From Datnioides undecimradiatus (taxonomy: Eukaryota; Chordata; Actinopteri; Lobotiformes; Datnioididae): a stretch of DNA of 64,000 nucleotides. Within the stretch, counting starts at the first letter, position 1. Each line of letters starts with the position of its first letter. The stretch is from the NCBI GenBank assembly GCA_008933995.1, contig WARS01000013.1, forward strand, positions 10,994,023-11,058,022. The letters are read 5' to 3'. The notes under the pieces are model-generated. The model saw only the letters and a program-made list of their open reading frames with translations. It searched no databases and was not told where the DNA came from. Position numbers and translations under genes: made by a program. Below are positions 5,401-64,000 of the stretch, piece after piece.

Positions 5401-8400
5401 TTTGCCGTACAGAGAAAAGACCTGCCACAAGGCATGGCCAGATGTTCAACATCTGCTTGTCTATACCTTCAAGATGCAGGGTGGGAGCCTCAATTACCTA
5501 AATTATCATATTATTATTGCTCATGTCTCTCATTCTCCAACATCATAAACCCCACTCTGTTTCCCTTCTTGTCTCAGGCTTAGTCCCAGTCACCACCCCC
5601 CCACCCACCCACCCGCCCCTTGAGGGTGCCTCTGGCTTGCCCCGCCCCCTTCTGTGGAGAGCCCTGCTGGGATTACATAATGGTCTTTTTAAAATTTAAA
5701 TCCCTGACACGCTTTTCTTGGCTGAACACAGGCCCGGCTCTCTTGTCCTGCTTCAAGGGGCCAGCTCTGCCCTCTCTACTGCCCCAGCCTCAACTCCTCA
5801 TCTAAAAATGGCCAGCTGGTGGCCTGTGGATCACATCCGGCTCACCACACCCTTAAATAGAGCACACACATATGTATACTGTGTATGTATGTGTATATAT
5901 ATTATATATAGTTTTGCCTATAGGAACTCAGACTGAGGTCCTTATGATGATAACGCTATATTTATTTACTCCTTTCCTTTCCAGATGAAGTAATAAGTGA
6001 CTACAGATCTTAGAAATTGAAGGGTAAATGAAGAGTATTTCAGTTTTGATACCTGAGCACAGAAATTACCTGTATATCACTCAACCATTTTGTCACATCA
6101 GAAAAGAGCTAAAGCAGCAATGGTAAAAGAACAAACAAAACAAAACAAATTAAGATTTTTTATCTTTCAGGTCATTGTTTGGTTCATGGCCAACAGCTTC
6201 ACCGTTTTGTGACGGTCTAACTGCTTTCAATAGCATTTTTAAAGCCACACCAGGCAGCTGGAAAAAGCCTTGATAAACCAACTGTACAGTACCCAGCCAG
6301 CCAAAATGACTGACATCAAGTTTGGACCCAGCTAACTTACTGGCTAACTGGAGCATTTAACAGCATAAGATGTTTAACCTAGGAGTTGATGGAGACCTAA
6401 CAGAGACACAAAGCCACAAAGAGAGTCAGTGGTCATTTGGCCAGAATTGAGTCAATGTCGAAGCTGTTTCTCTCTGAAATAACCATATCATAGCGCGTAG
6501 GCCATTTAGTTTGAAAAACAGTCATTGTCATTATTCGTGTTATTGCAGGCACATTACCTCATGAAGTACGAGCTGATTTGGGTGCTGTCCACACTCATGG
6601 TGACAAACCATCTTCTCTGCTGGTGTGTGATGTAATGCTTGCATATTTGTGTGTATGTGAGTATGCTACTAAGAAACACAGATTGAAGTCTAAAGTCTAC
6701 AGCATCTTTGAACTTTTTTAGAAACATGTTTCCTTTATTGCCTACATGAGTGAAATGAAGTGTGTGTATGTGTGTAGCAGGCAGATGTGTGCACATGCCC
6801 ACACATCAGCAGCAGGTTCTTGTAGGAACAAGATGCTGCAAGGCGACAGACTCTTTCATGTTGAGCAAGGGCTGTTTTCCTTGACATGTTGATGGCTATC
6901 TGGACTGGGTGGTGGCTGCTTTTGGGAGACAGTAGCAGGATCAAACAGATCACTTCCTTTTCCATATCTGCACAGTAAAGCCACTGGCTTTGAGTCAACT
7001 GTCTGGTAAATGACACCATTGATTAAATGCACACTAAACAACCCCCCCCCCTTATGTCCCATTACAACTCACTGTGGGTCTAACTTCAAAGATCAAAGAT
7101 AAAAACCCACCAGATTTAATATCTTTTAAAGGCAGTGTTTCTTTTGATAGGAGTCACTCAGACGCCCATTACATCATGAAAGATGATGTTTTCCACTCTG
7201 AATGTGGCTGTTACAAAAGTGCTTCATCTCCTAAAGAGCTAATTGCAACCTAGGTGGGAACTGTCTATAAAACTGTCCTTATTACAGGCCAGGGGCAGGG
7301 GACGTCATCTCAGTGTTACACACTTCCTGTGTTTCCAGGGCACACTCACTGCACGTGGGAATATTTCAGGATCCCAATAAAGTCTCCAGCCTGAGGAGAT
7401 GGCAGCTCTATAACAGTCTACACCCTACCTGCAGGCAACAGAACAGGCAAATAATCTCCACATTGATCTTTACTGCAAGGCCATCAATTGTTCATTGATT
7501 AGGAATGCAGATCAAAGTTCTATAAAAAGGTCATATGCCCAGACGACCATTTTGTTTTTGTTTTACTCTTTCAGTATCCCTTTATGCCAGTCTGACCCAG
7601 CACCCCAGGGTACAAAGGACAGCATTGTGGGGGTTACACAGCAGGGCAAAGCAGCTGCACTGGACAGTGGCTGACTTCCCCGGCAATAGCCAACTCACTA
7701 ACAAAGGCCACTGTGAAGCCCCATCCACATGAGTGAATAAATAAACCTCTCTCATGCATCTTTCAACCAGCAGCATCTGCAAAAGCACCTTGACAAAGAG
7801 CACATTTATCACGACAATAAAACTAACATACTCAGTATACAGGTTGTGTACATAGAGTTTGGGAAACATGTTGTTTTTTCTTTTCACAGTACATACAATG
7901 AGCTTCAAAAAGGCTGATCAGCTGTTTTCAACTGGGTTCAGATTCAGTCAGTAGTCGACAGTTTCCACGCCCAACATCTGCTCCACACCAAACTTCATGT
8001 TTTTAGCCTTTTTTTTGTTTTTTTCAAAATACCATTTGGTTTTTCTGGGATAATTTGGACAGCAGCATCATGGGTGACGGGGAGAGAGAGGGAGGAAGCA
8101 TGACAGAAGTTTGAATCATATGATGGATTTTGTGGTCCCACAGTAAATTTAAAGAATAAGGTTGATGATATTATTTACAATTTCCATGAAAAGACCAAAA
8201 CCAATGATGCAAAAGTCCACCTCTCACACTTCTCTACCCTGTCTGTGGCTCTCCACCCAGAGTCCATTGGTTCCTTCTGAAGGTCATGTCATCCATTGTG
8301 GTTCACTGATTTGCTTTTAAGAGTTTCTGAAAAACAACAAAGGTCTATGGCTCAGAGGAATAAATTATATCGGGCGTTGGCTTTTGGAAATACATTATAA

Positions 8401-10052
8401 GCAGGATCAATTGACTGGTGGTTTTGGTCTTTTCATGACATTTGTTGACAAAAAGAAAACCACTAAATATCACAGGAGGTATCCTTTAATTTTAATGAAG
8501 AAAGAAACCCACAATACCAACTGAGAGCACCCTGACAGACTATTACTAACCTTCTGTACTGACTTCTGTACTTAGTAACACTCTAAAGTAGCAGCTAAAA
8601 GTGATTATTCCAACCTCTGTAATGTACTTGTACATGGCACGATCCCTCAATAATAATCCTAACTTTCAGAAAACACCTAACTTCAAAGAAAGTCAGGACG
8701 AAGACTGGTATTTCTATTGTGTCTCTAACTACCCTGACACTGCAAAGCAACAGGTCCCTGCAGAGCACGAGTCCTATAACTCTTGTGTTTGAGAGAGTTT
8801 GGCATAAGCTGTTTCTAGAAGAAGACAGGGGATGCAGTCACTGTTGTTTCTGTCCCAGATAGAGACACGGAAGAAGGCTGGCCCACAGATGAGAAGGGAG
8901 GGAAAGAGCAGGTTGTGAAAAACAGCAGGTTTCTCCATTGCTCTGGGTGAGTCTCTAATGACTTCCAGGCCTGCTCTCAAACAGTCTCTGAGTCTAGACA
9001 GCAGCTACAGCACTCTACCGTGGCCTCCCAGACGCTCACTCTCTCTATCCCAGGCCAACCCCCCCCAAAAAAGCAACACACAAACACACACAGATACACT
9101 AACCCCCCCCCCATCCCAGGCTCTCTGTCCTCTCAGAAAACTACAGGCGGTTCAGTCTAAGAGGCTGACCAAAAAGACACTGCTGCTTTCATTCCCTCCC
9201 CAGGGATTCAGCCTCAAAGCATCTCAACTCTAATGAAGACTTTGAAATGACGGCTGTCTTTTTTTAGCACTACTTTCAGTTTGGTTGTGTCTCATGACTG
9301 CATCCTCTGTGGCTCTGCAAAATGCAAAAGCAAATCACATCTATCAAAGAAATACAAACTTTGTAATTCTCCTAATTGGCCATGACAGGCCTGCTTGAAG
9401 GCAGAATGACCTCTGTCACAAAATGATAAAAGATCCCAGTGTTTTCAGGACTGTGTTTAGCCAAATACATCTAACAGGCCAACACGCTCAGTCTGTTTGT
9501 CAATGACTGCTTTTAGAATATGTCTGGATGAATCATAGGCTACAGTAACATGTTAGCATAGCCCTGATATTACAAAAATGTATTTTAAAAGCCAGCACAG
9601 CAGGTTTTCTGTGGCAGTTTTAAAAGTAGAGACTTCATCTGTTGAAGAGTGTTCAAGTCAAATCAGTCTACATATTCACACATGCACAGGTATGTTAAAG
9701 ATGCTACATGACCCGAATATGAGCAAGCATGTTTTTGCAAGCCATAAAACTGAAGGTTCAGCTAACATTTCTTTTTATACAAATTTAATAGCTCTCTGTG
9801 TTTTGACCTCCCTTAAACACTCCCTTATTTATTTCACAGGAGATAAGCAGAGAGTTTATAGAAATAAAAATATATATACACAAGCTGAAAAGCATTTCCT
9901 TTCTACTGTAGGCTCCAATTATCCACCCTGAGTGGTTTAATGTCAGCCAAAGTTCACTCTTGCAGCAAGATCATAACAATCAGGGTACACAAGAAGGTAA
10001 CCCACAGTCTCTGGATACAATATGTTGCACTCAGTAATTTTGAGGGACTTAC

Positions 10053-18700: not shown

Positions 18701-21700
18701 GCACAATGCACATAATCAGAGAGAACATGCTGCCTACACATGCAGTTGCGTGTGGGTAATCCACATAAGTAAATGTGAAGATCAATTGCCTTAAAATTTG
18801 GTAAAAAATTCAGAATTATATATGTAGAGATTTATCAGATGTGATGTGGTGTGGGCCACAAACATCTCTCACCCATGTTTTTGCTCAGGCGAAAGATAGA
18901 ACAGCCACTGTGGGCCCAGCAAAGGCCATGTGAGGAGATTTCTGCCACAGAGTGAAGGGTGCATGCCTGCTTGAGGAATTAGTGTTACAATTAGGCTTAT
19001 GTTAAGGTTATGGTTGGGTACTTTGTGTTTAGGATTAGAAGTTAAGGAATAAATCTAAATCACAGTTGCATGAATAGTGACCTTGGTCCTGATGTGATTG
19101 AGTGTGTGTGTGCCTGTGGATGGGCTGCATATGTAATGTATCTGAAAATGATCACTAATGTCAGTGTTTCACAATCTGGCAAGATTCAGCAGCATGGAGC
19201 CTTGGCGACTTCTATTAGGTACTTTATCTGTAGATAAGAATGAGGCCTGCTTCTTTGGTTCAATTTTCTTCCAACAGTTCAATTCACAAGTAATCTACAA
19301 TAGGTGCGACTCTGCTCCGTCACACTTTTTGTCCCAGGAAAGAATGGATGTCAGCGAAAAAACCTTGTAGCAGAGGCTTAAATGGATGTGAATGAATGTA
19401 TTTGTTCTGCGGGCTGATGCTGAAAATAGACCGTATTTTAACTGGAGGAGGAACCAAGAATGGAAACTTCTCATAAACAAAGAAATATATGACTGTGATA
19501 GTTGACTGACTATATGTCTATCTGAAGCTGGAACTGAAGCTAAACATTCACAACAGACAAGTATATGATGATTGCATTTCTGCATTAATGGTGTGAATCA
19601 ACTCATGGACAGTATCAATCTTTCACAGCAATAATACTCAATATAACTCCTATTGTGCGAGAGCAACCTGACAAATCAGGGTCACAGCTTTAGGCACGAG
19701 TCATCAACACAAACAGTCCTTTCAGGCCGACACAGAAAGTTAAACTCATGTTTGCTATCAGTGTGAATGGGTCAACACAAATCATCCAGCCTGACCCTGA
19801 CACTGCCTGACCTCAACAATAAAGGGCGAAAGGGATTGTGTTACTTAAATATAATATACTTTCTTTTGCAGTATTAAATACAGTCAAGAATTGAAGGAAT
19901 ACAATAAAGTTGCACACTGGACACAAATGTCCAGCATAAAACACTGTAAGTTTGACAAATTCCTTTTAGCAAGTTGCAGTAAGCAACTGCAGTTACTAAC
20001 TTTTTTGTAATCGTGACTGTTAGGTTGTGATGAATGGTCAACCGTGGGATGAATGAATGTTCATAAAACAATACTATCTCAGTCCTCTACTCTAATCACA
20101 TTCACACCTGTGCATGTGAAGGACCACTGCTCAGTGATAACAGCTTCAGCCATAATTAAGTTTCTTATTCAACTCTCACTGTCTCCCTCTTTCTCTTTTG
20201 CATGCACTCTTACTCATGCAGATATAAATTTATCTGCTGAATTATCAAGGGAGTATAATCTTTTAAACAGATCATTCCCTGGATGATAATAGTGGCTGCC
20301 ACTGGAAGACCATAAAATGAAATGTCTGTGCTTTACACAGAAAACTAAACCCACAAGCTATGGTAATAAAACAAGATCAATGGCTTTCTTTGCACTTACA
20401 TCTAATATAAGTTAACCAAAGCAGTTACAAGACTTAAACAGCACCTCCCAGCTGCTATAATCAATACTTTTATATTGACACTAGATCACATGACTACTTG
20501 TACTTGAACAAGGCGTCTCTAATGATCAACCCACAGAGAATTATCACCCAACTCTGCAGCTCCTCTGTGCACTACTGAGCTTTAGAGTCTTTCAGTTCAT
20601 TGTTTTGGTTTTCCAACCAGCTCCACACTTAAGAAACACACTGTCAGCAACAACAGGCTGGTAACTGAGGTAACAACCAGCTGGTAAACAAAGTGAAAGG
20701 GCCACATAATTTTCTTAAGAGATGTTAAAAAGAGCTGTTAGAGCTGTTGTTAAAAGGCTAAATATTTGCACATTTCTGTATGTTTATCTGTATCAGCTGA
20801 TTGTTTATACACAATGACAACAGCATCACCTGATAAAAATCATAATCCTGAAAATATGAGGTCTAAATCTTTCTGTCTACCACTTATAACCGCTCTCCAA
20901 AAATCCTGGTCACTCATAAACATATTTAAGTTCAGTTTTCTGCTCTCATTGTTTAAACTGTTGACTGTATGATTTTTGTGGAATTGTTTCTAGGCTCTGC
21001 AATGTAGCAACAGGGGGACAATGGCTTCCTTCTTCCTTGGAGTAATGATGAACCATTGGTCATCATGCAGGAAGGATTTCTGACATTTTGTACGAGAAGA
21101 GATAATAACTACTGGCTAAGACAGATTGTCCAGGGGATACAGCCTCCTCCTCAGCATTTGATCTAAGCTACAAATCAAAGACATTTTTATGAGCCTGCTT
21201 TCATAAGTGATTCTTTTCTTCTATCCTCACCTTCACACGCTCAGAGCTGTGGCATGAAAAGTTGCTGGCTAATGTATTGTGAACATACAGTTCTACATTG
21301 TTATCCCTGAGCACGTTTCTGCTCATCTTCTCCCAGAGTGCCTCCTGAGGCCGACTTCTACAGTATCTCCAATCCTTAAATAGCTCCATCTAGATAGTGT
21401 ATCTCAATCAGCGGGCCACAGCTCCAAAGTGGGTCACAAGGCTGGTCTGACAAGCCTGGCCACATATACACAGAGCACTTTGGTGAACATACGCCACCTT
21501 TTAAAAAACTTTGCTGTATTTTCAGGCACTGGTGAAAAAAAGTCAAATATTTTACATTTATGATACGTTTTAGGCAAATGAGTTGGGAGCATCTCAGTGC
21601 TGCTAGTTTTTAAAAAAAATAAAGCACTTTTTTATGCCCTTTTCCCTTCTTGCTGCAGGTTAGATGAGATAATTGACACCACGCCCCTAACTGCATGTTG

Positions 21701-24700
21701 ATTAGGAAACTGAATCCAGGAGACAGTTTGCATAGCTTAGCATAAAAACTGAGAACAGGGGGAAACAGCTAGCTTGGCTCTGAAGGTAAAAAAAAAAAAA
21801 AAAATTATATATATATATATTATATATATATCTCAGCATTTCTTATGTGCTAAATATTTAAACTGAGATTTATCATCTTTTTAAAGGTTATGTGTGGGAG
21901 TATTCGTGGGCTGGGAGAGCAGGTCACACTTAGTAGACTGGGTTATGATATCTTTTATGACAGCTTTTGTAGTCTTTACGCTTGCTTATGCTAACTGGCT
22001 GCTGGCAGGATACATATTGACCTAACAGTGAGGAGATAAGAAGGGTGGTCGATTCTCTTCTAACTAACTAACAAGAAAGTGAATAGGCATATTTTCCAAA
22101 ATTTCAAACTCTTTCTTCAAGGCTAAAACACATTTTTTAATGACATAACAAACGAGAAATAAGGGCAGGAAGTTTCTTCTTTTTACACACAAATGAATAC
22201 CTACAGGACAGGTTTAACCCAAGTTGTGCAGTTCATTGTTTAGTCTATGTGTTGAGTCTTGCACCAGTTGGAAATGCATTGCTTCAGCAGCACAGAATTT
22301 CAATAATGAAGCCACATAAACCATCAGTGTAATAATAAGCAACTGAACTTTACTTAGCCAGAGTTGTTTTCCCCCAGGAAAAGCTACTGACCAAAGTACT
22401 GGATTTTATGTTGTCTTCAGTTATGCAGCCACTGCTGGTTTTCAGTGTGTCACATAAGGTATTTATGCAGCATCGGGATCAACAATTTCTTGGTTATTCA
22501 CTGATCTAAACCAAATATCTAAGGGCAGTGTTAAATATAACCTCCTGTTATTTACATTAGCCACTTTTTACATACACTTTTAAATGGTCAACAGCAACAC
22601 GGACTAACAAATGTAATCTGTGTCCACGTTCGCCTCAGTTGTCAGCAAACAGTAAAGTGGTAACCTTTTGGCCAAGTGGATGTCATTGTGATGACAGTAT
22701 AACACCAGTAACAGCCAAATGCTGGGCCAGTTCTAAGACCTCCACCAAATGTTACAGCAGAAAGAGAGACGCTCCACAGGAAAAGTGCTAGGACAAGAGG
22801 GGCACTGACAGTGCACTGTTAACCCGGAAGTTCTTTTCTATGCAAACAGTTTGAGTAAATACTAATTTTTAAAATTAGTTTTGTTACATTACTTAAAGAG
22901 TTTTGAGTATAAGGAAGAGTGTATGAGGCAGTCATTGGTTGTACTATTTTTGTAAGTTTAACAAACTTAAATGATCAAGTGTTATTCTCATTACAGCGCT
23001 GTTCTGCTAGGATTGGCTGGAAAACTCAAGACAAGTCTGTGCTTGTCTGTTGGCGGATACAGAGAAAGTTGCAATCTATTTTCTCTTTTTATTTTCACAG
23101 AGCACTTAAGGTCGTTGCACTGCATGCCCTTTTGGACAATACATTTTCTGTCTGCAAATTTCTGTTTTTGGACCCTTTAATGGACATTTGCCTGCAGTAA
23201 AGAGGTTACCATTTTCTGCATGAACTAGGTGAGCTGTTTTCAAGTACTACTATTTAGAAACGGCTGGAACTTTTCTAGTTTGAAACGTGTACATTTGAAT
23301 GTGCCTAAATTTGAGGTTGACTTAGGTGAATAATGAGCATTTGATTGTTAGGGATTGATAAACAGTCTTAAATTCAAAATGGGGAATTACATGAGCCAGC
23401 TGGGACGGGCTGATGCAAAGATTAACGGTGGTAAACGTGGAAAAAAAAATGCTGACGGTGAAGAAAGAAACCAAGACAAGGGGAGTGATGGGCCAACGCT
23501 GGCCAGCGCTTTTCACTGAAAGCCAGGTTTGTGAAAGTGTCCTTTAAATGTTTTTCTTATTTGTGTTACATACATCACTACACAACATGTTCAGAGAGGT
23601 AGAAGTAACTCTGCCTGAATATCAAAATTTAGCTTATTTTCAAAAGTTTTTATGTATTTTTCAGGTTTACTTGGAGTTTTACAGGGTTGTTGGTAGAAAT
23701 CTTAAAGAAGAATTCTTTGGTGGTCCTGATGGTTTGTGTCCAAGCTTGATGGAAATCTTCAAAAGGAAGACAGGTCGGATCGGCAAGCTTCTTGTAATGA
23801 TATTGATGGTTGGTTCATCCCTATTACAAAAACTAATTCTCTCACCTTCCCTCGTTGTATTTCTCTGTATGAACAAATAAACTGATATAAGATATATTTC
23901 TTTGTTCTACATTTAAGTGTGTGTTATACCTCTTTGCAGAGCACTGAGCCAACAGCCACTAGATGCCTTGTCCTGAGAGGATGTCCAGTCATTCTTGGGG
24001 ATGATGCATCTGTGTTCCTTAAGAGCAGTTCGGTGAGTAACGTTTTTTGATTATTGCTTGAATCAGTTTTGCCTTTCTCCTATGTTTTGTTTATTTGAGA
24101 TGATGGGTTATGATAATTAGCATTTATGAAGATGTTTCATTGACCTTAACCTATACATGAACACATACAAAAATGGCTCTAACAGCTTGTTTACACAAAA
24201 TTACCTAAAATAAAACCACAGTGAATTATAAAAATCATACTATTAAATAAAGCCATACAGCTGATTGTAGACAAATTGCTGTTAAGCTGATTATCCTCTT
24301 GTTTCTCGCATTATGTAGAATCTTAATGAAGGAGGGACATTCCAGTGGGAATCTATGAGGACAGCAGAGCTGCAAGCCCAGCATCACCACAACATCACAT
24401 CATTGTTAATACATATTTGTTGCTTTGTTGTGTGTTTCAATAAAATAAATAAAATGTACTGGATTGTGTGGTCATTGACAAAAGAAGAATTTAATTGCAA
24501 TTTTCTTATCTCAAATGTTTTAATTTTTAATATAGTCATATTTTTAATAAAACTAGGATTTTAAGTGTATTAAGTTCTGACTGTTGTACTTTTAAGTAGA
24601 CTCCACAGTTTTTTCTATTGTTGATTACTTAAACCATTTAATTGTATATAACTTAAAATGTTAAATTCTGACCATTGTACATTTAAGTTGACTACACTTA

Positions 24701-40822: not shown

Positions 40823-40861
<39 letters not shown>
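40823..40861. repeat. (CA)n microsatellite, left of the mariner-like element
   Basis: About 19 CA units ending 10 bp before the left terminus of the mariner-like element. Confidence 0.95.
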
Positions 40862-40863
<2 letters not shown>

Positions 40864-40871
40864 TCCATATA

Positions 40872-41231
40872 CAGTACTACTCGGAAAATTAGAATATCGT
40901 GTAAAAGTTGTTTTATTCAGGCAATCCAACATCAAAGGTGAAACCAATACATTTTATAGACTCATTACATGCAAAGTGAGATGTCTCAAGCATTTTTTGT
41001 TGTAATTTTGCTGATTATGATTTACAGCTTATTAAAACCTCAAACCCAAAAACTCAGAAAATTAGAATACTGTGAAAAGCTTCAGTATTGTAGGCTCAAA
41101 GAGTCACACACTAATCAGGTAAGTAATCCAAAACACCTGCAAAAGGGTCCTGAGCCTTTAAAAAGTCACCTTTAAAAGTTGAGTTACAGAAATGCATGCA
41201 CTTTTTCAGGATATTCTAATTTTCCGAGTAG

Positions 41232-41236
<5 letters not shown>
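40872..41236. mobile_element. non-autonomous mariner-like element with perfect 27 bp terminal inverted repeats
   Basis: The left end (40872-40898) begins CAGTACTACTCGGAAAATTA. The right end (41210-41236) is its exact reverse complement over 27 bp, ending in GTAGTACTG. An internal copy of the AAAATTAGAATA word near 41058 gives the inner repeat common in such elements. Interior words (TTATAGACTCATTACATGCA; CCAAAACACCTGCAAAAGGG) match, from memory, a common vertebrate Tc1/mariner-type repeat. It is 365 bp with no transposase. A TA lies on the left, but the right flank is overwritten by a (TG)n tract, so the target duplication cannot be confirmed. Confidence 0.85.

Positions 41237-41284
<48 letters not shown>
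41235..41284. repeat. (TG)n microsatellite, right of the mariner-like element
   Basis: About 25 TG units growing directly out of the final ...ACTG of the mariner-like element, followed by a short (TA) run. Confidence 0.95.
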
Positions 41285-57000: not shown

Positions 57001-60000
57001 TTAAGACTCTTATGCTTATGTTTCATACACCCTATGACTTCCTTTGTGTGTGGATCACGCACAGAGTTCCCTTGAGAGTCAGTGTTTCTATTTGTGAATC
57101 AGACATTACTATCTGACGGCACTTAAATGCTTCATTTGAACCAAAAATACCTGGTAGTCGAGCTGTATTTAGGAGAGAGGTGTGTGTTGTGCATTGGCCT
57201 GTCTGTGAGTGTGTGGCAAAGACAGGCCTGGAACAAATTGTTTTTGGCCCTGGGCTCCTGTCTCCTGTCTGGTGAAAACAACAGGAGAGAACAGTGTTAC
57301 TGTAACAGCCTCCACCAGAAGACAAAGACAGAGAGGGTGGAGGCAGACAAAGTTTTCTGTGAATGCTTGATTGACACCGTTGATTGTATGATACATCTTT
57401 ATGCTTCCACCTCAATCATACGTTTGTGTGGCAGAGCTGGTATGCAGGAGCAGATTCCTCTCATTGCCACATAGTCACCTCATCTGTCATTGATCCAGTT
57501 TTCTGTGTGCTCCTCTGTTTCCTCAGGTATGGCAAGATTGTGTCGACGAAGGCCATCTTGGATAAAACCACCAACAAATGTAAAGGTGAGTGGTGTTAAA
57601 CCAATTTTAAGGGAAGAGTTTGCATCATGCTGTTAGTTTTCCAACATTTTGGGATATATCGCTTTCATGCTGAGAGTTACTCTGTGCCTGCGTGCTAAAT
57701 ATAAAGCTGCACCTACAGATTAGATTAGGTTACACTAAAAACTGGAAACAGGTAGAAACAGCCCTGTTCTGTCCAACAGTTATAACAAATCCAGCTCCTT
57801 TCTTTTATCTGTATAAATATCTTAGAGAGTCAGGATGCTTAGCTGCTTCCATACTTTATGCTAGGCTAAGTTAACTGTCATCTTTAGTTTCATATTCAAC
57901 AGACAAATATGAAAGTGGTGTTGATCTTCTTATCTAAATCTCAGCAAGAAAGCACACAACTTCAGAACTTAATAACACCACAGCAATTTTGGTCTGAACT
58001 GTTCTGTTTTACAGGCTATGGCTTTGTGGACTTTGACAGTCCAGCGGCAGCACAGAAAGCTGTTACAGCCCTGAAGTCCAGTGGGGTCCAGGCTCAGATG
58101 GCCAAAGTAAGAAATCAGCCAATTCTTACTGCTCATCCATATTTTTTTGCCTTTGGTTTAGTTTTTTTGCTGTTCTGTGTGCAGCTTTGAGGTCACTCAG
58201 CGAATCTATTTACATATAATCAAAATAAATACTTCATTGTAACAAAGGCACAGCAATGCATCCATGATCATATATTTCAAACAATATTGTTAATCAGCTC
58301 ATCACCAGATAATTTGAGACCCTGCATAATAATGATGAACTCATTTTCCAAAGCATCCAACATGAAACCTTCTCAGAAAACACAGCACGTAAGTTGCAAG
58401 CTACAGAGGCCTACGTGACACACCATATCTATGGTCAAGTTCATCTTCTAATCCAGTCTTGTCTGGCCCTTCTCTTTAACGTATTGATCTCCAAAGAGCC
58501 ACCTGCTAAACTTTGACCACCAAGAGTCATAGTCCCTTTCTGCAAAGTGCTCGCTTGGCCTCTCGATTATGTAAAAGGTAAACTGTTAACATGGAGTGTC
58601 CTGTTGGCAGAGCTTCAAGATAAACTCTGGTTTATAGGGAGGTGTCAGTACCTTTAATCTTCATTGGGCGGACCTGTGCCAGTAATGCACAGATGTACGA
58701 AGCATAAGCATTACAAGTAAAATCACCCCATTTTTAATCATTCTTTTGGCTAACACCACCCTCCCTGCTTTGTTAATCCATTACTGTCTTTCCTTTCATC
58801 CTCATTTTGCCTCCTCTTTCTCCACCACCCTCCTCAGCACCTTCTCTCTCCGTTCCCTCACACCCTTGTGTCTGTGCTTGTGTATGTTGCTAACCTGCTC
58901 CTGTTGTAGCGCTTGTTCTGAGCTCTTTGTCCAAGTGTCTGCAGTCAAAGCAACTCTTGTCGGCCCATTAAGCTGATCCCTCTGGCTCTCAGGCTCCCCA
59001 TTGAGGGAACCCAGGGGAGGGTGCCACTACACCCACTGTCAATGGGACATGCACAATGGGCTGGCATTGTCCATCGTCTGGGCCCAGGCCTGGGGCTGAC
59101 ACCAGCACTTAATACACTCCACCCCAGTGTCCCTGCCCCCTCCCCCTTGTCCTGCACCCAAACACCCACTGCAATGTAACACCAGAATCTTCCTCAGCCC
59201 CAACCCTGGAAAAGTGTAACAGATCCACTCTGCCAGCTGACCTGAGCCAGTCCAGTGCAACTGAACCTGAAGTCTAACTTCACTGCACCTCCTCTGTGAG
59301 AGTGCCACACAATCCTGTGTATCTCAATACACCACAAGTGCAACTGGACACCAAGACTAGACTCACCCAGACAGCATGTGCTCAGTCAGAGGTGTTGATA
59401 ACCACTATAAAATCCTAAATATACACAGTCGCTTCAGAGCCACCGGGTTACCTCAGGTCAGGAAAAACAAGCAGCGGTCTGAAATCAGTTTAATATCAAA
59501 CTCTTCAAGTGCAGTTTCACCTGTTTCCATCTTCACCATGGCTGCTACAGAGTGTTGTTCATAAACATAATGAGCCACACCTTGCAGTCAGTGTCCCCAG
59601 AGTATGTTTGGTCCCTGAATGGACCAGCCCAGCCCATGGGCTGTGGGCCCAGAGGAGCCGCATACGTTCAAGCGACAAAACCATGACAGAGTTAAAAATA
59701 GATCCCTTCTTACATCCCAACAGCACCTCCCTGTTCAAACTCAGACGTCAGCTCTCACGTGCTGCTCAACACACACGCAGGCAAAGCAGAGACACACCTC
59801 AACAGGCATAGCTCACCTAGGGCCTGGTGCACACGAAAATTGCACTCAGCAAATCCCATTCACATGTGCCTGGGCTGGGTCCAACAGCATTTTCATATCT
59901 CCAGCGGGGTGAATATTTGTTTGAATATGAAATGGGATATTGTGTGCACTGGCTGAGGTAAACGGTAAATAAACAGATTAAAAAGGCATTTTTTGTCCCT

Positions 60001-63000
60001 TTGTCATCAAGCCTTAAACTCCATTAGTGTCATCTGTAGTGTGCCACCGTGTTGCATAATGGTCATGTCGCCACACCCAGCATGACGACAATCACAGAAA
60101 ATAGGTTACCTCGTCGCCAGGTGGCTCAGGGCTGAGAACAGAGGCTACTCATAAATAGGCAGTAAATCGTCATTTGAGATAGCCGTTGACACACCGTAAT
60201 ACCACAAATGCTCTCGGTCCTCATTGTCAGATCAATAAACTTACAATGCCTGTGTTAATTTTGGCTGGACTCCTGCATCTGCCTGTGCTAGCACCTGGAT
60301 CCAGGCTGTCAACTCTGGTGTGATGGGTCAGCCTACTTCAGATCGTCATTCCTTGAATTGTTTGACGTGCATCTGATAATTTCTTTCATGCACAATAGCA
60401 AAGCTTTATCATTTGTGGTGACTTGATTGCAGTAAGTGTTTTTATAAGAGGGATAAGCTGAAAGAGAAGAGGCTGTTCATTCATCCTCCTTTGCTCTTTT
60501 CTATCGTCTTCCTCTTTCATTACCAAATTACTCGAGACTCCCACTACTTCCTATCTTGTCAGCTCCCTCCCTGTGCAAAATATCAGCCTTTTGAGCCACT
60601 CGTTCCTCCCACCCTCCCTCTGCTCTATCCTCTTCCTCCACTCTCTGTTTTCCCTTCCCCTCGTTTTAGCCCAACCTCTTTTCTCCCAGTTGCCAGGCTC
60701 CTGTTGCTCTCTGTACTCTTTAACTTCATGCCTGGCTTCCTGTCTGCTTCTGCACAGTCACACAAGGTTTCACTTTCAAGCTGGTGGCACAAAACAAGTC
60801 TCTGAATAATCTCACCTCCTTAATTGACATGCAGCTATCGAGACCTCTTAATTAGGCAACATTTCACCCGAATGTGCGACTTAATCTTAATTTGCATGTG
60901 TTGGTGTATTAATGTGTGCTTTTTTCAAAAACCAGACAGCTCAGCAAAGGCCGTGACACACGCATCACATGTCTGACAGATTATTCAGGGTTTATGCTTA
61001 TTGGTCGGAGACTAATTATGATAAAGCTGTTTATCCATATCAGTTCCTTTTGGAAAATGATGCTTGACAAAGCTTGATTGAAGCTTTAATGCACAGAGAG
61101 TGCCTGCCTACACAGGAGGTTCTAAGATTCTCCATTTACATCACAAATGGAAAGAAAATATTAAAACTAATGGTATGTTTTTTTGTTATACCAATGAAGT
61201 ATTAAACAAGAAACAAACTGAACAATGGTTTCAACTTCTGCATTAACAGATAATTGTATTCCAGTGAAACAAAAGGAATCGTATCTTCATTCAAAAAGAT
61301 CTGTACGTGAACTGATTTTCATGTCAATTTATTGTACAGCAACAAGAGCAGGACCCGACCAACCTCTACATCTCCAACCTGCCAGTATCGATGGATGAGC
61401 AGGAGCTGGAGAGCATGCTCAAGTCCTTCGGCCAGGTTATTTCCACACGCATCCTCCGAGATGCCAACGGGACCAGCCGCGGAGTTGGATTTGCCAGGTC
61501 AGACTGTAGCACCCTGATTGGCGTGTAGTGATAAAAAGTAGTCTGTATGCAATTAAGAACTGAAATGGACTCTGACTGGATTTCAGGATGGAGTCCACAG
61601 AGAAGTGCGAGGCCATAATTCAGCATTTCAATGGCAAATTCATCAAGACTCCACCGGGAGTGCCTGGTGCGTGGACTGTTTGTGTTGTATTATGGGAACC
61701 TGATATTGTTTTTGGTGTTACCAGAACTCAGTGTTTGTTTCATCTGCTGTGATCATTGAATTCACTGTCTTTTGCTGATGTGCTGCTTTTCACAGTGCCC
61801 ACAGAGCCCTTATTATGTAAGTTTGCAGACGGAGGTCAGAAGAAGAGGCAGAACCAGGGGAAGTACCTCCAGAATGGACGGCCTTGGGCTAGAGACGGAG
61901 AAGCGGTGAGATGGCCAAGTTTAACTCGCTATTCTTAAATTGAACTTCTTTGGTGGAAATTAAAGCAAGAACACCTTAGAAAAAGTTCAGTTTTATCATT
62001 CTCACTGTGTGTTAGCTGACTTATTTAGGACAGACTGCACCGGTGTTTGCATGACCTCACCGGTTCTGAATCCTGTGTATTGCTTTCCCAGGGAGGAATG
62101 ACGCTTGCGTATGACCCCACAGCCTTACAAAATGGGTGAGTGGTATGCATGAACTGACTGAAAACAGTCCCAACCCTCCAGGAAAACAAACACATTTCTC
62201 AAACTCTAGTATACTGCTGCCCTCTACAGGTTAACACAGGCACCCAGACATGTTGATAATGTAGACATGCTGCAGATTGTTGCTGTGATGTGGTTGTCTC
62301 GATGTTTTTCATACCTCTCTCTGTCTGTTTGCCAGCTTCTACTCGTCGCCCTACAGTCTGGCTCCCAACCGAATGATCGCCCAGACTTCGCTCTCACCCT
62401 ACATGCATTCTCCTGTCTCATCCTACCAGGTGGGATTGTATTTTTAATTCACATTAATTTATTTTAAAGCCTTAATGAGTTTTTAATCTGCCTTAAGGCC
62501 GACACTTCATTTTCTGTTGCTTCTCTGTGCCAAAGCCCTCATTATGTCCACATTATGTAAGTTAAGAGACCCTTGGGGACGACCCCAGCTCACAGCAGTT
62601 GTAATATTCTTCTGGTTCAGCCTCGATTCTTGACCTTTCTCTGCAAACTTACATAATTCAGAGGTGGCTGAATGCAGCTAAGGAACACTGCAAAGATTTT
62701 TTGACGCATTTCCTGATGCACAGGTAAACAGCCCGTCCTGGATGCACCATCAGTCATACCTCATGCAGCCAGCTGTGAGTAACGACCACCTTCTCTCCTC
62801 CTCCATTTATACTTGGCCACTTTATTTGCCCTGTGTCAGAATCAATCAGAATCAAATGAATATAAAAATAAATATATTAATAATAAATCCAAATGTAGAC
62901 ACCACCAAAATCAGTTCATCAGCATTGTTTCCTATGTAGCTGTAGCTTAACTGTAGCTTGTGACTTAACTGTGTGTGTTTGACTCTTTCATGATCACTTT

Positions 63001-63380
63001 AAACAAATTAAATGATTGAGAGTCGTTCTTTTTTATATGTCTATGTGTTTGTGTGTGTCTATGCACTCACAGGGTACAGTTCTTACCCCAACAATGGATC
63101 ACGCCATGTCTATCCAGCCCACGTCCATGATGGGACCTCTCACCCAGCAGCTAAGCCACCTGTCCCTTGGCAGCACGGGCACAGTCAGTACAAATCACAC
63201 AGATTGTCTCCATAACTAACTATTCTTCAAATGATTAATTATTCATGTTTAAAATGTAAATACTACACAGATTTAGTGTTTTCCTTTCTGCTTTCCCTGC
63301 AGTATATTCCGGCCAACACAACTATGCAGGGGACCTACATCCCCCAGTACACCCCAGTGCCTCCCTCCAGTGTCCCAGAG
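41943..63380 (+). CDS. rbms2: rbms2, RNA-binding motif single-stranded-interacting protein 2 (exons 1-12; last exon beyond the window)
   Basis: RBMS2 belongs to the MSSP/RBMS family of proteins that bind single-stranded nucleic acid through two RRM domains; family members bind A/U-rich RNA and affect mRNA stability. Twelve exons join in frame to 372 residues: 41943-42014, 53214-53380, 57527-57585, 58015-58106, 61340-61497, 61587-61666, 61796-61905, 62092-62135, 62336-62429, 62724-62774, 63073-63183, 63303-63380. RRM1 has RNP2 LYIRGL (60-65) and RNP1 KGYGFVDF (99-106). RRM2 has RNP2 LYISNL (139-144) and RNP1 RGVGFARM (177-184). The N-terminus [14 protein letters not shown] is specific to RBMS2; RBMS1 and RBMS3 start differently. 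The C-terminal [14 protein letters not shown] segment also fits RBMS2. The ATG is the first after an in-frame stop at 41886. Human RBMS2 is about 407 residues from memory, so roughly 30 codons are missing at the right edge. Duplicates a and b of teleosts cannot be separated here. Confidence 0.96.
43637..43924. mobile_element. percomorph MITE-like repeat (TTAGTTGTAGCCC type)
   Basis: The left end AGCTGCAAATGATTAGTAAA and right end GATAATGAAAGTAACTGTTA followed by GTTGTAGCCC are diverged inverted repeats. Just inside the right end is AGACTAATTGGCAGATTAGC. These words match a common fish repeat that I recall with ends like GGGCTGCAACTAACGATTAT. It lies in rbms2 intron 1 and has no coding sequence. 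Confidence 0.6.
45303..45345. repeat. 43 nt near-perfect palindrome (20 bp arms, 3 nt loop)
   Basis: The left arm is CAGTGATTCACACGAGGCAA and the right arm is its reverse complement except for one position. The loop is GAA. It lies in rbms2 intron 1. Confidence 0.9.
51306..51329. repeat. (CA)n microsatellite
   Basis: About 12 CA units in rbms2 intron 1, about 1.9 kb upstream of exon 2. Confidence 0.93.
53214..53380 (+). CDS. rbms2: rbms2 exon 2: low-complexity linker and start of RRM1
   Basis: Encodes residues 25-79 plus two bases of Pro80. It starts [15 protein letters not shown], passes through a Ser/Asn/Gly-rich linker and enters RRM1 at [11 protein letters not shown], ending at KLCQ before a GTGAGT donor. 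The acceptor is a tandem CAGCAG: use of the second AG starts the exon at 53217 and drops Gln25. I chose the first AG for the longer form; both keep the frame. Confidence 0.94.
53560..53700. mobile_element. percomorph palindromic MITE-like repeat, copy 4 (partial)
   Basis: Has AAGTTAAGCTAACTGTTTCT, CTTCCAGTGTTTTTGCTAAG and CTAAGCTAATTGCG, the right-arm words of the family. It lies in rbms2 intron 2, about 200 bp after exon 2; the left arm is missing. Confidence 0.6.
54740..54761. repeat. (CA)n microsatellite
   Basis: About 11 CA units in rbms2 intron 2. Confidence 0.93.
57527..57585 (+). CDS. rbms2: rbms2 exon 3: RRM1 middle
   Basis: A 59 nt exon between CCTCAG and GTGAG that completes Pro80, encodes [19 protein letters not shown] (81-99), and gives the first base of Gly100. 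The sequence is nearly identical to mammalian RBMS proteins as I remember them. It supplies the first residue of RNP1, which is split between exons 3 and 4. Confidence 0.95.
57586..58014 (+). other. rbms2 intron 3 (429 bp), mostly MITE
   Basis: A short intron from GTGAG to TTTTACAG. Most of it (about 57640-57960) is one copy of the percomorph inverted-repeat element, leaving only about 55 bp at each end that looks like original intron. Confidence 0.8.
57640..57960. mobile_element. percomorph palindromic MITE-like repeat, copy 5
   Basis: The left part has AATATAAAGCTGCACCTACA, AAAAACTGGAAACAGGTAGA and AACAGCCCTGTTCTGTCC. The right part has TATGCTAGGCTAAGTTAACT, AATATGAAAGTGGTGTTGAT and CTTCTTATCTAAATCTCAGC, all family words. 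It occupies most of rbms2 intron 3. Confidence 0.75.
58015..58106 (+). CDS. rbms2: rbms2 exon 4: end of RRM1
   Basis: Begins with GC to complete Gly100, then encodes [20 protein letters not shown] to AQMAK (101-130), completing RNP1 and the final helix and strand of RRM1. It ends in phase 0 at a GTAAGA donor. The translation runs on in frame into intron 4 for about 30 codons, a chance read-through. Confidence 0.95.
58107..61339 (+). other. rbms2 intron 4 (3.2 kb)
   Basis: GTAAGA to TTGTACAG. Its centre (about 58950-59350) is unusually C-rich on the plus strand but shows no recognisable coding exon. The rest is ordinary AT-rich intron. I identify no mobile element in it. Confidence 0.75.
61340..61497 (+). 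CDS. rbms2: rbms2 exon 5: linker and most of RRM2
   Basis: Encodes residues 131-182 plus two bases of Arg183, from [20 protein letters not shown] through [20 protein letters not shown] to GVGFA. It contains RNP2 of RRM2 (139-144) and most of RNP1 (177-184). The [15 protein letters not shown] segment is a hallmark of the RBMS family. It is bounded by TACAG and a GTCAGA donor. Confidence 0.96.
61587..61666 (+). CDS. rbms2: rbms2 exon 6: end of RRM2
   Basis: An 80 nt exon after an 89 bp intron. It completes Arg183 and RNP1 (RM), then encodes [19 protein letters not shown] and TPPGVP up to 209, plus the first base of Val210. The acceptor is TTTCAG and the donor GTGCGT. Confidence 0.95.
61796..61905 (+). 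CDS. rbms2: rbms2 exon 7: conserved post-RRM2 segment
   Basis: Encodes Val210 (completed) to Ala246, including [20 protein letters not shown] and NGRPW, the conserved basic stretch after RRM2. It lies between CACAG and GTGAGA. Within it, TTATGTAAGTTT carries an internal GTAAGT that would make a strong cryptic donor. A diverged inverted copy of this exon lies in intron 9. Confidence 0.95.
62092..62135 (+). CDS. rbms2: rbms2 exon 8
   Basis: A 44 nt exon encoding [14 protein letters not shown] (247-260) plus two bases of Gly261. It corresponds to the MALTYDPTTALQNGF region of other RBMS proteins. Acceptor CCCAG, donor GTGAGT. Confidence 0.94.
62336..62429 (+). CDS. rbms2: rbms2 exon 9
   Basis: Completes Gly261, then encodes [18 protein letters not shown] to SPVSSYQ (262-292), in the Pro/Ser/Gln/Tyr-rich C-terminal region, ending in phase 0 at GTGGGA. 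Acceptor TTTGCCAG. Confidence 0.95.
62430..62723 (+). other. rbms2 intron 9 (294 bp) with inverted exon 7 copy
   Basis: GTGGGA to GCACAG. The middle contains an inverted, diverged copy of exon 7 (about 62604-62657, extending perhaps to 62670). A short forward piece resembling the start of exon 7 (about 62527-62563) is also present. The forward and inverted pieces share a perfect 12 bp inverted repeat (62552-62563 with 62646-62657). Confidence 0.8.
62724..62774 (+). CDS. rbms2: rbms2 exon 10
   Basis: A 51 nt, phase 0 exon encoding [17 protein letters not shown] (293-309), a segment characteristic of RBMS2 among the family. Acceptor GCACAG, donor GTGAGT. The human protein, as I remember it, has about nine more residues just before this segment; they are not present here. 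Confidence 0.93.
63073..63183 (+). CDS. rbms2: rbms2 exon 11
   Basis: A 111 nt, phase 0 exon encoding [20 protein letters not shown] to LSLGSTGT (310-346). It matches the conserved VLTP-MDH...[13 protein letters not shown] segment of RBMS2/3. Acceptor CTCACAG, donor GTCAGT. Confidence 0.95.
63303..63380 (+). CDS. rbms2: rbms2 exon 12
   Basis: A 78 nt, phase 0 exon encoding [20 protein letters not shown] to SSVPE (347-372), bounded by a pyrimidine-rich CCTGCAG and GTATGA. The remaining C-terminus (family motif with SGQQ-Q-AVD and a Tyr/Phe-rich end) should be on the next exon, beyond base 64000. Confidence 0.93.
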
Positions 63381-64000
63381 GTATGAAAATAACCTCAACC
63401 TCAGCAACGTTTAACATTACCATGAAGAAGAAGCAGAAGACTGATAATTAAAAACTCTCAGAGGGATGTTTTTTTAAAACTTGAAAATCAACCGCTTTAA
63501 GCACATCGGGTCTAGTGTATTTATATTTTAAGGAGCATCAAAGTTAGGGCACAGAAGCAGGGGAGGGTGTTCATACTGTCATCTGACTGATTTACTGAGC
63601 TAGACAGTGTGTATGTGTCCTGAAAGTGTGTGTGTGTGGGGGGGGGGCGTTATGTGACAGGCAGAAATGTATATGTGTGTCATAAGTCTATAAACTGAAA
63701 GAAAATAATTTTCTATCAGAGAAGTTGTTTTTTGTGTGATGTAGCATAAAAACAGTATTGATTCATGTGCTATTTTGGAGCGATGAAACAGAAACAGGGC
63801 AAGACGGAGTCAAACCATTTCTCAGTTTGTGTTCACAGAAACACAACAAGACAGACTAAGACCGATTTTTGTTAGATGGTTGTGTATTTCCTGTTTTTTT
63901 GGACTCACCTGTACCCACCATAAATCCATATGTGAGCATCAGATTCAAAACTCACACATTCCCTGTGTTTTATCCATACAGCATTGCACGTGTTTAAGCT
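63381..64000 (+). other. start of rbms2 intron 12
   Basis: No coding exon recognised. It has a short GT/G-rich tract near 63.63-63.65 kb. The final rbms2 exon was looked for and not found. Confidence 0.7.

Follow-up and report, generated by a model that had tools for sequence, protein, structure and literature searches.

An inverted copy of part of exon 7, probably an old one, lies in intron 9 of an RBMS-family gene

Intron 9 of a gene that, to judge by its encoded protein, belongs to the RBMS family carries a block that, read from its bases, is an inverted, diverged copy of a segment of exon 7. The block is probably the outcome of an old local inverted duplication of the template-switch type, which has been diverging passively and serves little if any selected function. 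According to this reading, a tract of ~51 bp in the 5' half of exon 7 would have been copied in inverted orientation into intron 9, ca. 0.75 kb further downstream, during local replication or repair, in an event that we infer from the sequence to have been of template-switch type. The intron copy would then have diverged free of coding constraint, and a short neighbouring direct copy of the exon 7 start suggests that more than one copying step took place. The pre-mRNA may form a predicted duplex between exon 7 and intron 9 in which exons 8 and 9 are looped out.

Results

The gene was studied within a stretch of 64,000 nucleotides (hereafter the window) for which 41 open reading frames were listed. 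The closest solved structure to its protein is that of RBMS1 (E 5.6e-55, covering residues 1-89 of the 242 given), and the first residues of exon 7, up to CKF, align with the end of this structure. The label rbms2 is that of the earlier note, as is the exon numbering used here (mapped exons start at 58015); by sequence the gene is a member of the RBMS family, the choice between rbms2, rbms1 and rbms3 being undecided. A single open frame runs across eight joined exons from 61341 to 63380 (two outer ends were off by 1 and 3 bases); the acceptor TACAG at 61335-61339 sets the exon start at 61340, and the exon from 63073 ends at 63183, as set by the donor ACA/GTCAGT. Skipping exons 8 and 9 jointly (138 nt, 46 codons) keeps this frame, while skipping either alone breaks it, an arrangement that is expected by chance for about one in three pairs of exons. 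A degenerate exon 7 pattern had 0 matches in viral and prokaryote contigs, as expected of an animal gene. An 18-nt tandem repeat (2.2 copies, 62935-62972) is situated in the intron after 62774. Among the literature matches listed, none dealt with an inverted copy of an exon within an RBMS gene, which is not proof of absence, and a portion of one zebrafish paper mentions the expression of rbms2a/rbms2b (PMC9304896).

Table 1 Exons, intron and exon 7-like tracts in the RBMS-family gene (positions in the window)
Feature	Position	Strand	Details
Exon 7, RBMS family, presumed source	61796..61905	+	110 nt; splice sites ACAG/TGCCCA and GAAGCG/GTGAGA; frame open into adjoining exons
Exon 7 arm of the inverted repeat	61812..61862	+	51 nt; 78% complementary; repeat search
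Exon 8	62092..62135	+	44 nt; within predicted loop
Exon 9	62336..62429	+	94 nt; within predicted loop
Intron 9, carrier of both copies	62430..62723	+	TACCAG/GTGGGA, ACAG/GTAAAC; frame kept
Short direct match to exon 7 61802-61818	62531..62547	+	15/17; BLAST E 0.75 for whole window
Second short direct match to exon 7 61812-61830	62552..62570	+	16/19, first 12 exact; repeat search
Inverted, diverged copy of exon 7 segment in intron 9	62607..62657	-	51 nt; exact 18-nt core at 62640-62657

The two arms of the inverted pair (Table 1) agree at 40 of 51 ungapped positions and are separated by 744 nt, the intron copy being the downstream one. A base-by-base comparison bears out the claim of the earlier note of an exact reverse-complement match between 62640-62657 and 61812-61829. 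That note also put the similarity at about 75% over 55 bp; the similarity itself stands, the measured identity over this length is 40/55 (73%), and the ungapped match ends at 61862/62607. The peptide that it read on the minus strand of the copy does follow from the bases, with 10 of 17 residues equal to those of exon 7 (counted by eye). On the other hand, the CAG that it had placed at an acceptor-like distance is outside the block and 10 nt away from it, as compared to 16 nt in the exon. Anchored extension beyond the block gave scores no better than those of shuffled flanks (67/300 shuffles as high upstream and 196/300 downstream), and as the similarity does not reach past the block, the CAG is not counted as part of the copy and is best taken as chance. 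The block is thus discrete and sharp-edged: the recognisable copy consists of exon bases only, ~51 bp in all. Homology of the copy into intron 6 or toward the acceptor was considered and rejected, given that the longer alignment obtained with lenient gaps is not carried by the flanks. A separate 15-nt inverted pair (87%) joins intron 6 (61738-61752) to 62590-62604, beside the copy but not collinear with it.

The copy stands well apart from what the window and randomized sequences offer. With exon 7 as the query against the 64-kb window, BLAST returned it with an E value of 4.9e-8 (short-query settings) or 6.6e-8 (standard settings), the next matches having E values of 0.16 and 0.06 in the two settings. 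The earlier note had itself proposed a shuffled-sequence test of its reading: exon 7, aligned locally to intron 9 in inverted orientation, scored at best 60 versus a shuffle maximum of 35 in a 2/-2 scheme and 54 versus 32 in a 2/-3 scheme, i.e., 0/5000 in either (dinucleotide shuffles of intron 9, n = 5000 per scheme). Intron 9 was taken as 62432-62723 in the shuffle, folding and duplex-energy runs and as 62430-62723 in the joint direct-match and distance-matched tests. When the query comprised intron 6, exon 7 and the start of intron 7, the observed score was reached, whichever of three schemes was applied, by 0/3000 shuffles and by 0/404 real (overlapping) stretches of 292 nt taken from the window. 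Similarly, none of 1234 real, overlapping, distance-matched pairs from the 64-kb window attained the score of the copy, and the best of these controls was a simple GT repeat (score 40 vs 54). That the match is a chance similarity or an assembly error is next to negligible as an explanation: nothing was found in favour of either, E is about 5e-8 in the window with none of the 5000 shuffles reaching the observed score, and a divergence of 22% is unexpected for an assembly duplicate.

With the low-complexity filter on, the window contains three inverted repeats with E <= 1e-3, and the exon 7/intron 9 pair is the second of them; exact inverted 18-mers that pass the complexity filter are found in three places. 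Several other repeat structures were seen elsewhere in the window. A palindrome-like block at 40823-41282 ends in (CA)n and (TG)n; its inner arms, 40866-40908 and 41200-41242, are 91% complementary, and an extra direct copy lies at 41052-41078. The block resembles a small palindromic element or the product of a further event of direct-plus-inverted copying. Two tracts 36 kb apart, 21647-21746 and 57855-57950, share a 100-bp inverted similarity (70% identity, E 1.6e-4) and are perhaps an old dispersed repeat. Finally, 27-nt inverted arms that are 89% complementary lie at 8177-8203 and 8419-8445, with 215 nt between them.

The distribution of differences between the two arms bears on whether the copy has been under any constraint. 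The 51-nt block has 11 mismatches, none of them inside the 18-nt core; they are spread over codon positions 1, 2 and 3 as 4, 4 and 3, so the copy does not appear to have been held by coding. Under random placement, the chance of a clean 18 at that end is 0.4% for the 51-nt block (0.08% for 55 nt), and that of 18 uninterrupted matches at any position is 4.9% (1.2% for 55 nt). A G-U pair is retained at 6/11 mismatches over 51 nt, or 6/15 over 55, and the probability of 6/11 is 0.005, 0.04 or 0.13 under a transition bias of 1, 2 or 4, respectively. The clean core and the G-U mismatches together lean slightly toward a pairing that has been kept, in an undecisive manner, the pair having been chosen for its exact core.

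Overlooked by the earlier note, two further short tracts of intron 9 match the start of exon 7 in direct orientation (Table 1); they are 4 nt apart and together span 62531-62570. The score of the best direct local alignment, the match at 62531-62547, was reached by 43/5000 and 25/5000 shuffles in two schemes, and the joint score of both matches by 0/4000 shuffles and 0/610 real stretches, a figure that is overstated because the two matches share ATTATGT and may constitute an internal tandem repeat of the kind that shuffling destroys. We therefore consider a small direct copy of the exon 7 start in intron 9 to be likely and less secure than the inverted one. A full direct second exon 7 in this intron was also entertained and found to be weak: 8, 79 and 35 of 3000 shuffles, and 0, 11 and 4 of 404 real stretches, scored as high in the three schemes. 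The direct alignments run back into intron 6 in two of the three schemes.

Given that both arms are contained in one transcript, the exon 7:intron 9 duplex can form, looping out exons 8 and 9. Its predicted energy is -113.0 kcal/mol as compared to a shuffle mean of -61.4 and a shuffle best of -80.9 (n = 1000, none of which reach it). The mean pair probability predicted for the core is 0.992-0.994 in all five pre-mRNA contexts, ranging from the unspliced form to that in which intron 9 alone remains, in calculations that leave out proteins, kinetics and splicing speed. The earlier note had suggested that the pre-mRNA could fold exon 7 onto intron 9, and the predicted exon 7-to-intron 9 fold does put the exon on the copy. 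The effects that it named, a shift in the inclusion of exons 7-9, a circle of exons 8-9 and editing, would be possible outcomes of such a fold. The predicted loop stretches from the end of exon 7 to the start of intron 9 and contains exons 8 and 9 along with introns 7 and 8. Folded alone, intron 9 forms a predicted hairpin in which the direct match at 62552-62570 pairs with the inverted copy, though the intron as a whole is not more stable than its shuffles (z -0.29, with 75/200 at least as stable). At equilibrium the mean pair probability of this rival hairpin is 0.0 in 5/5 contexts, and its energy is -19.7 kcal/mol versus -73.0 for the pairing with exon 7, the stretches compared differing in length.

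Two splice-site motifs in the region deserve mention in their own right. A decoy 5' splice site, TAT/GTAAGT, which the duplex core would mask, ranks only ca. 25th of 367 GT sites by U1 pairing; it was set aside owing to this low rank and to the Cys-Lys-Phe codons, which themselves supply TAT/GTAAGT. At 62720-62729 the intron 9 acceptor is directly followed by a donor-like CAG/GTAAAC, 4th (tied with 3rd) of the 367 GT sites by U1 pairing in 57901-63990. Such back-to-back 3'/5' splice-site motifs are known from recursive splice sites.

Discussion

Exon 7 is taken as the source of the duplication because it is the coding side and because its start aligns with RBMS1, an alignment limited to roughly the first 16 nt of what was copied. 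The mismatch of 22% suggests that the copy is not recent, and the lack of extension past the block fits a discrete copied tract. The mutational route is inferred: short inverted copying by replication template switching is described in passages of PMC8794818, where no more than 8 bp separate source from target in the compensatory cases that pass quality criteria, and where the discussion allows for longer distances. The likeness consists in a reverse-complement copy of a nearby tract, from which RNA stems are possible, while the differences are that the event is unreconstructed here and that the tracts in those cases, as far as these passages go, are a few bases apart. The separation of 744 nt is far above the 8-bp limit of the cases in that part of the paper and counts against a template-switch route. 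A different origin would have the block as a dispersed or transposed repeat with exon 7 sequence from a paralogue or retrocopy that landed here. Only exon bases were copied, which makes an RNA intermediate or a paralogue conceivable, but no other copy of the block is present among the BLAST matches in the 64-kb window, no tandem array extends over it, and a chance landing in the same gene, a mere 744 nt off, is unlikely; we find this account scarcely plausible. No Rfam match at gathering score was found in 61300-64000. Old local duplication is the origin that we favour, and the copy has most likely been tolerated with little or no selected function.

A selected function in splicing is the alternative that the predicted pairing brings to mind. 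The copy would dock exon 7 and loop out exons 8 and 9, leading to their joint, frame-keeping skipping or to a circular RNA, and the direct copy at 62552-62570 would compete for the inverted one and free exon 7. We regard such an element as unlikely, with arguments on both sides. Its duplex is predicted in all five contexts, the looped-out exons of 44 and 94 nt are in frame only together, intron 9 alone does fold the direct copy onto the inverted copy, and the core is clean with G-U-tolerant mismatches. Human data also point that way, for according to PMC8052449 the average inclusion of looped-out exons is lower, and circular RNAs show an enrichment of conserved pairings around them. Against this, the hairpin is no thermodynamic competitor to the exon pairing, the whole of intron 9 is predicted to be no more stable than its shuffles, and human genes are depleted of pairings with exons in the loop (PMC8052449). 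From the pattern of these human pairs of conserved complementary regions (PCCRs), the consequence to look for would be joint skipping of exons 8 and 9 or a circle made of them (PMC8052449), either of which is possible under the modelled fold. A more elaborate form, which we deem quite improbable, is a kinetic switch whose parts are all copies derived from the exon, whereby the inverted scrap docks exon 7 and loops exons 8 and 9 as an in-frame cassette (to be skipped or circularised) and the direct scrap acts as a fast local competitor.

Two classes of long-range RNA structure invite comparison. Like the PCCRs outlined in PMC8052449, the exon 7:intron 9 pair has complementary arms less than 10 kb apart with exons looped out between them, and its two tracts are predicted to pair stably within a single pre-mRNA (-113.0 kcal/mol, exceeded or equalled by 0/1000 shuffles); however, in the sections of that paper at hand PCCRs are defined in conserved intronic sequence, whereas one arm here is coding and the pair is known from one sequence. 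The docking-site/selector-sequence structures of mutually exclusive exons, as presented in an excerpt of PMC6071210, share with it one inverted intronic tract and two candidate partners of the same sequence. In contrast to the structures of PMC6071210, one partner here is a coding exon, no duplicated spliceable exon came to light, and the predicted ensembles give the second pairing negligible weight. Two pairings of comparable weight, as in docking and selector sequences, are not predicted at equilibrium, the second having a mean probability of 0.0 in all five contexts.

An exon paired with an intronic sequence is also the layout of GluA2 editing. There, as in the fold predicted here, the exon faces an imperfect inverted copy of itself from an intron further downstream, the editing complementary sequence; the copy described here is not in the adjacent intron and is known from sequence alone. 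By analogy, the intron copy would serve ADAR as an editing complementary sequence, and the adenosines of exon 7 would be edited. What speaks for this is that exon and intron can pair imperfectly over ~51 bp, with a perfect core of 18 bp, but intron 9 must remain unspliced when the enzyme acts, and we consider an editing substrate to be very improbable. We know of no recoding site in RBMS genes.

Even if the duplex is inert, it is a usable test object in which a constrained coding arm faces a free intronic one, and the keeping or loss of pairing could be read across relatives. If the duplex acts on splicing, a DNA copying error would have supplied a ready-made long-range RNA structure with an exon as one of its arms.
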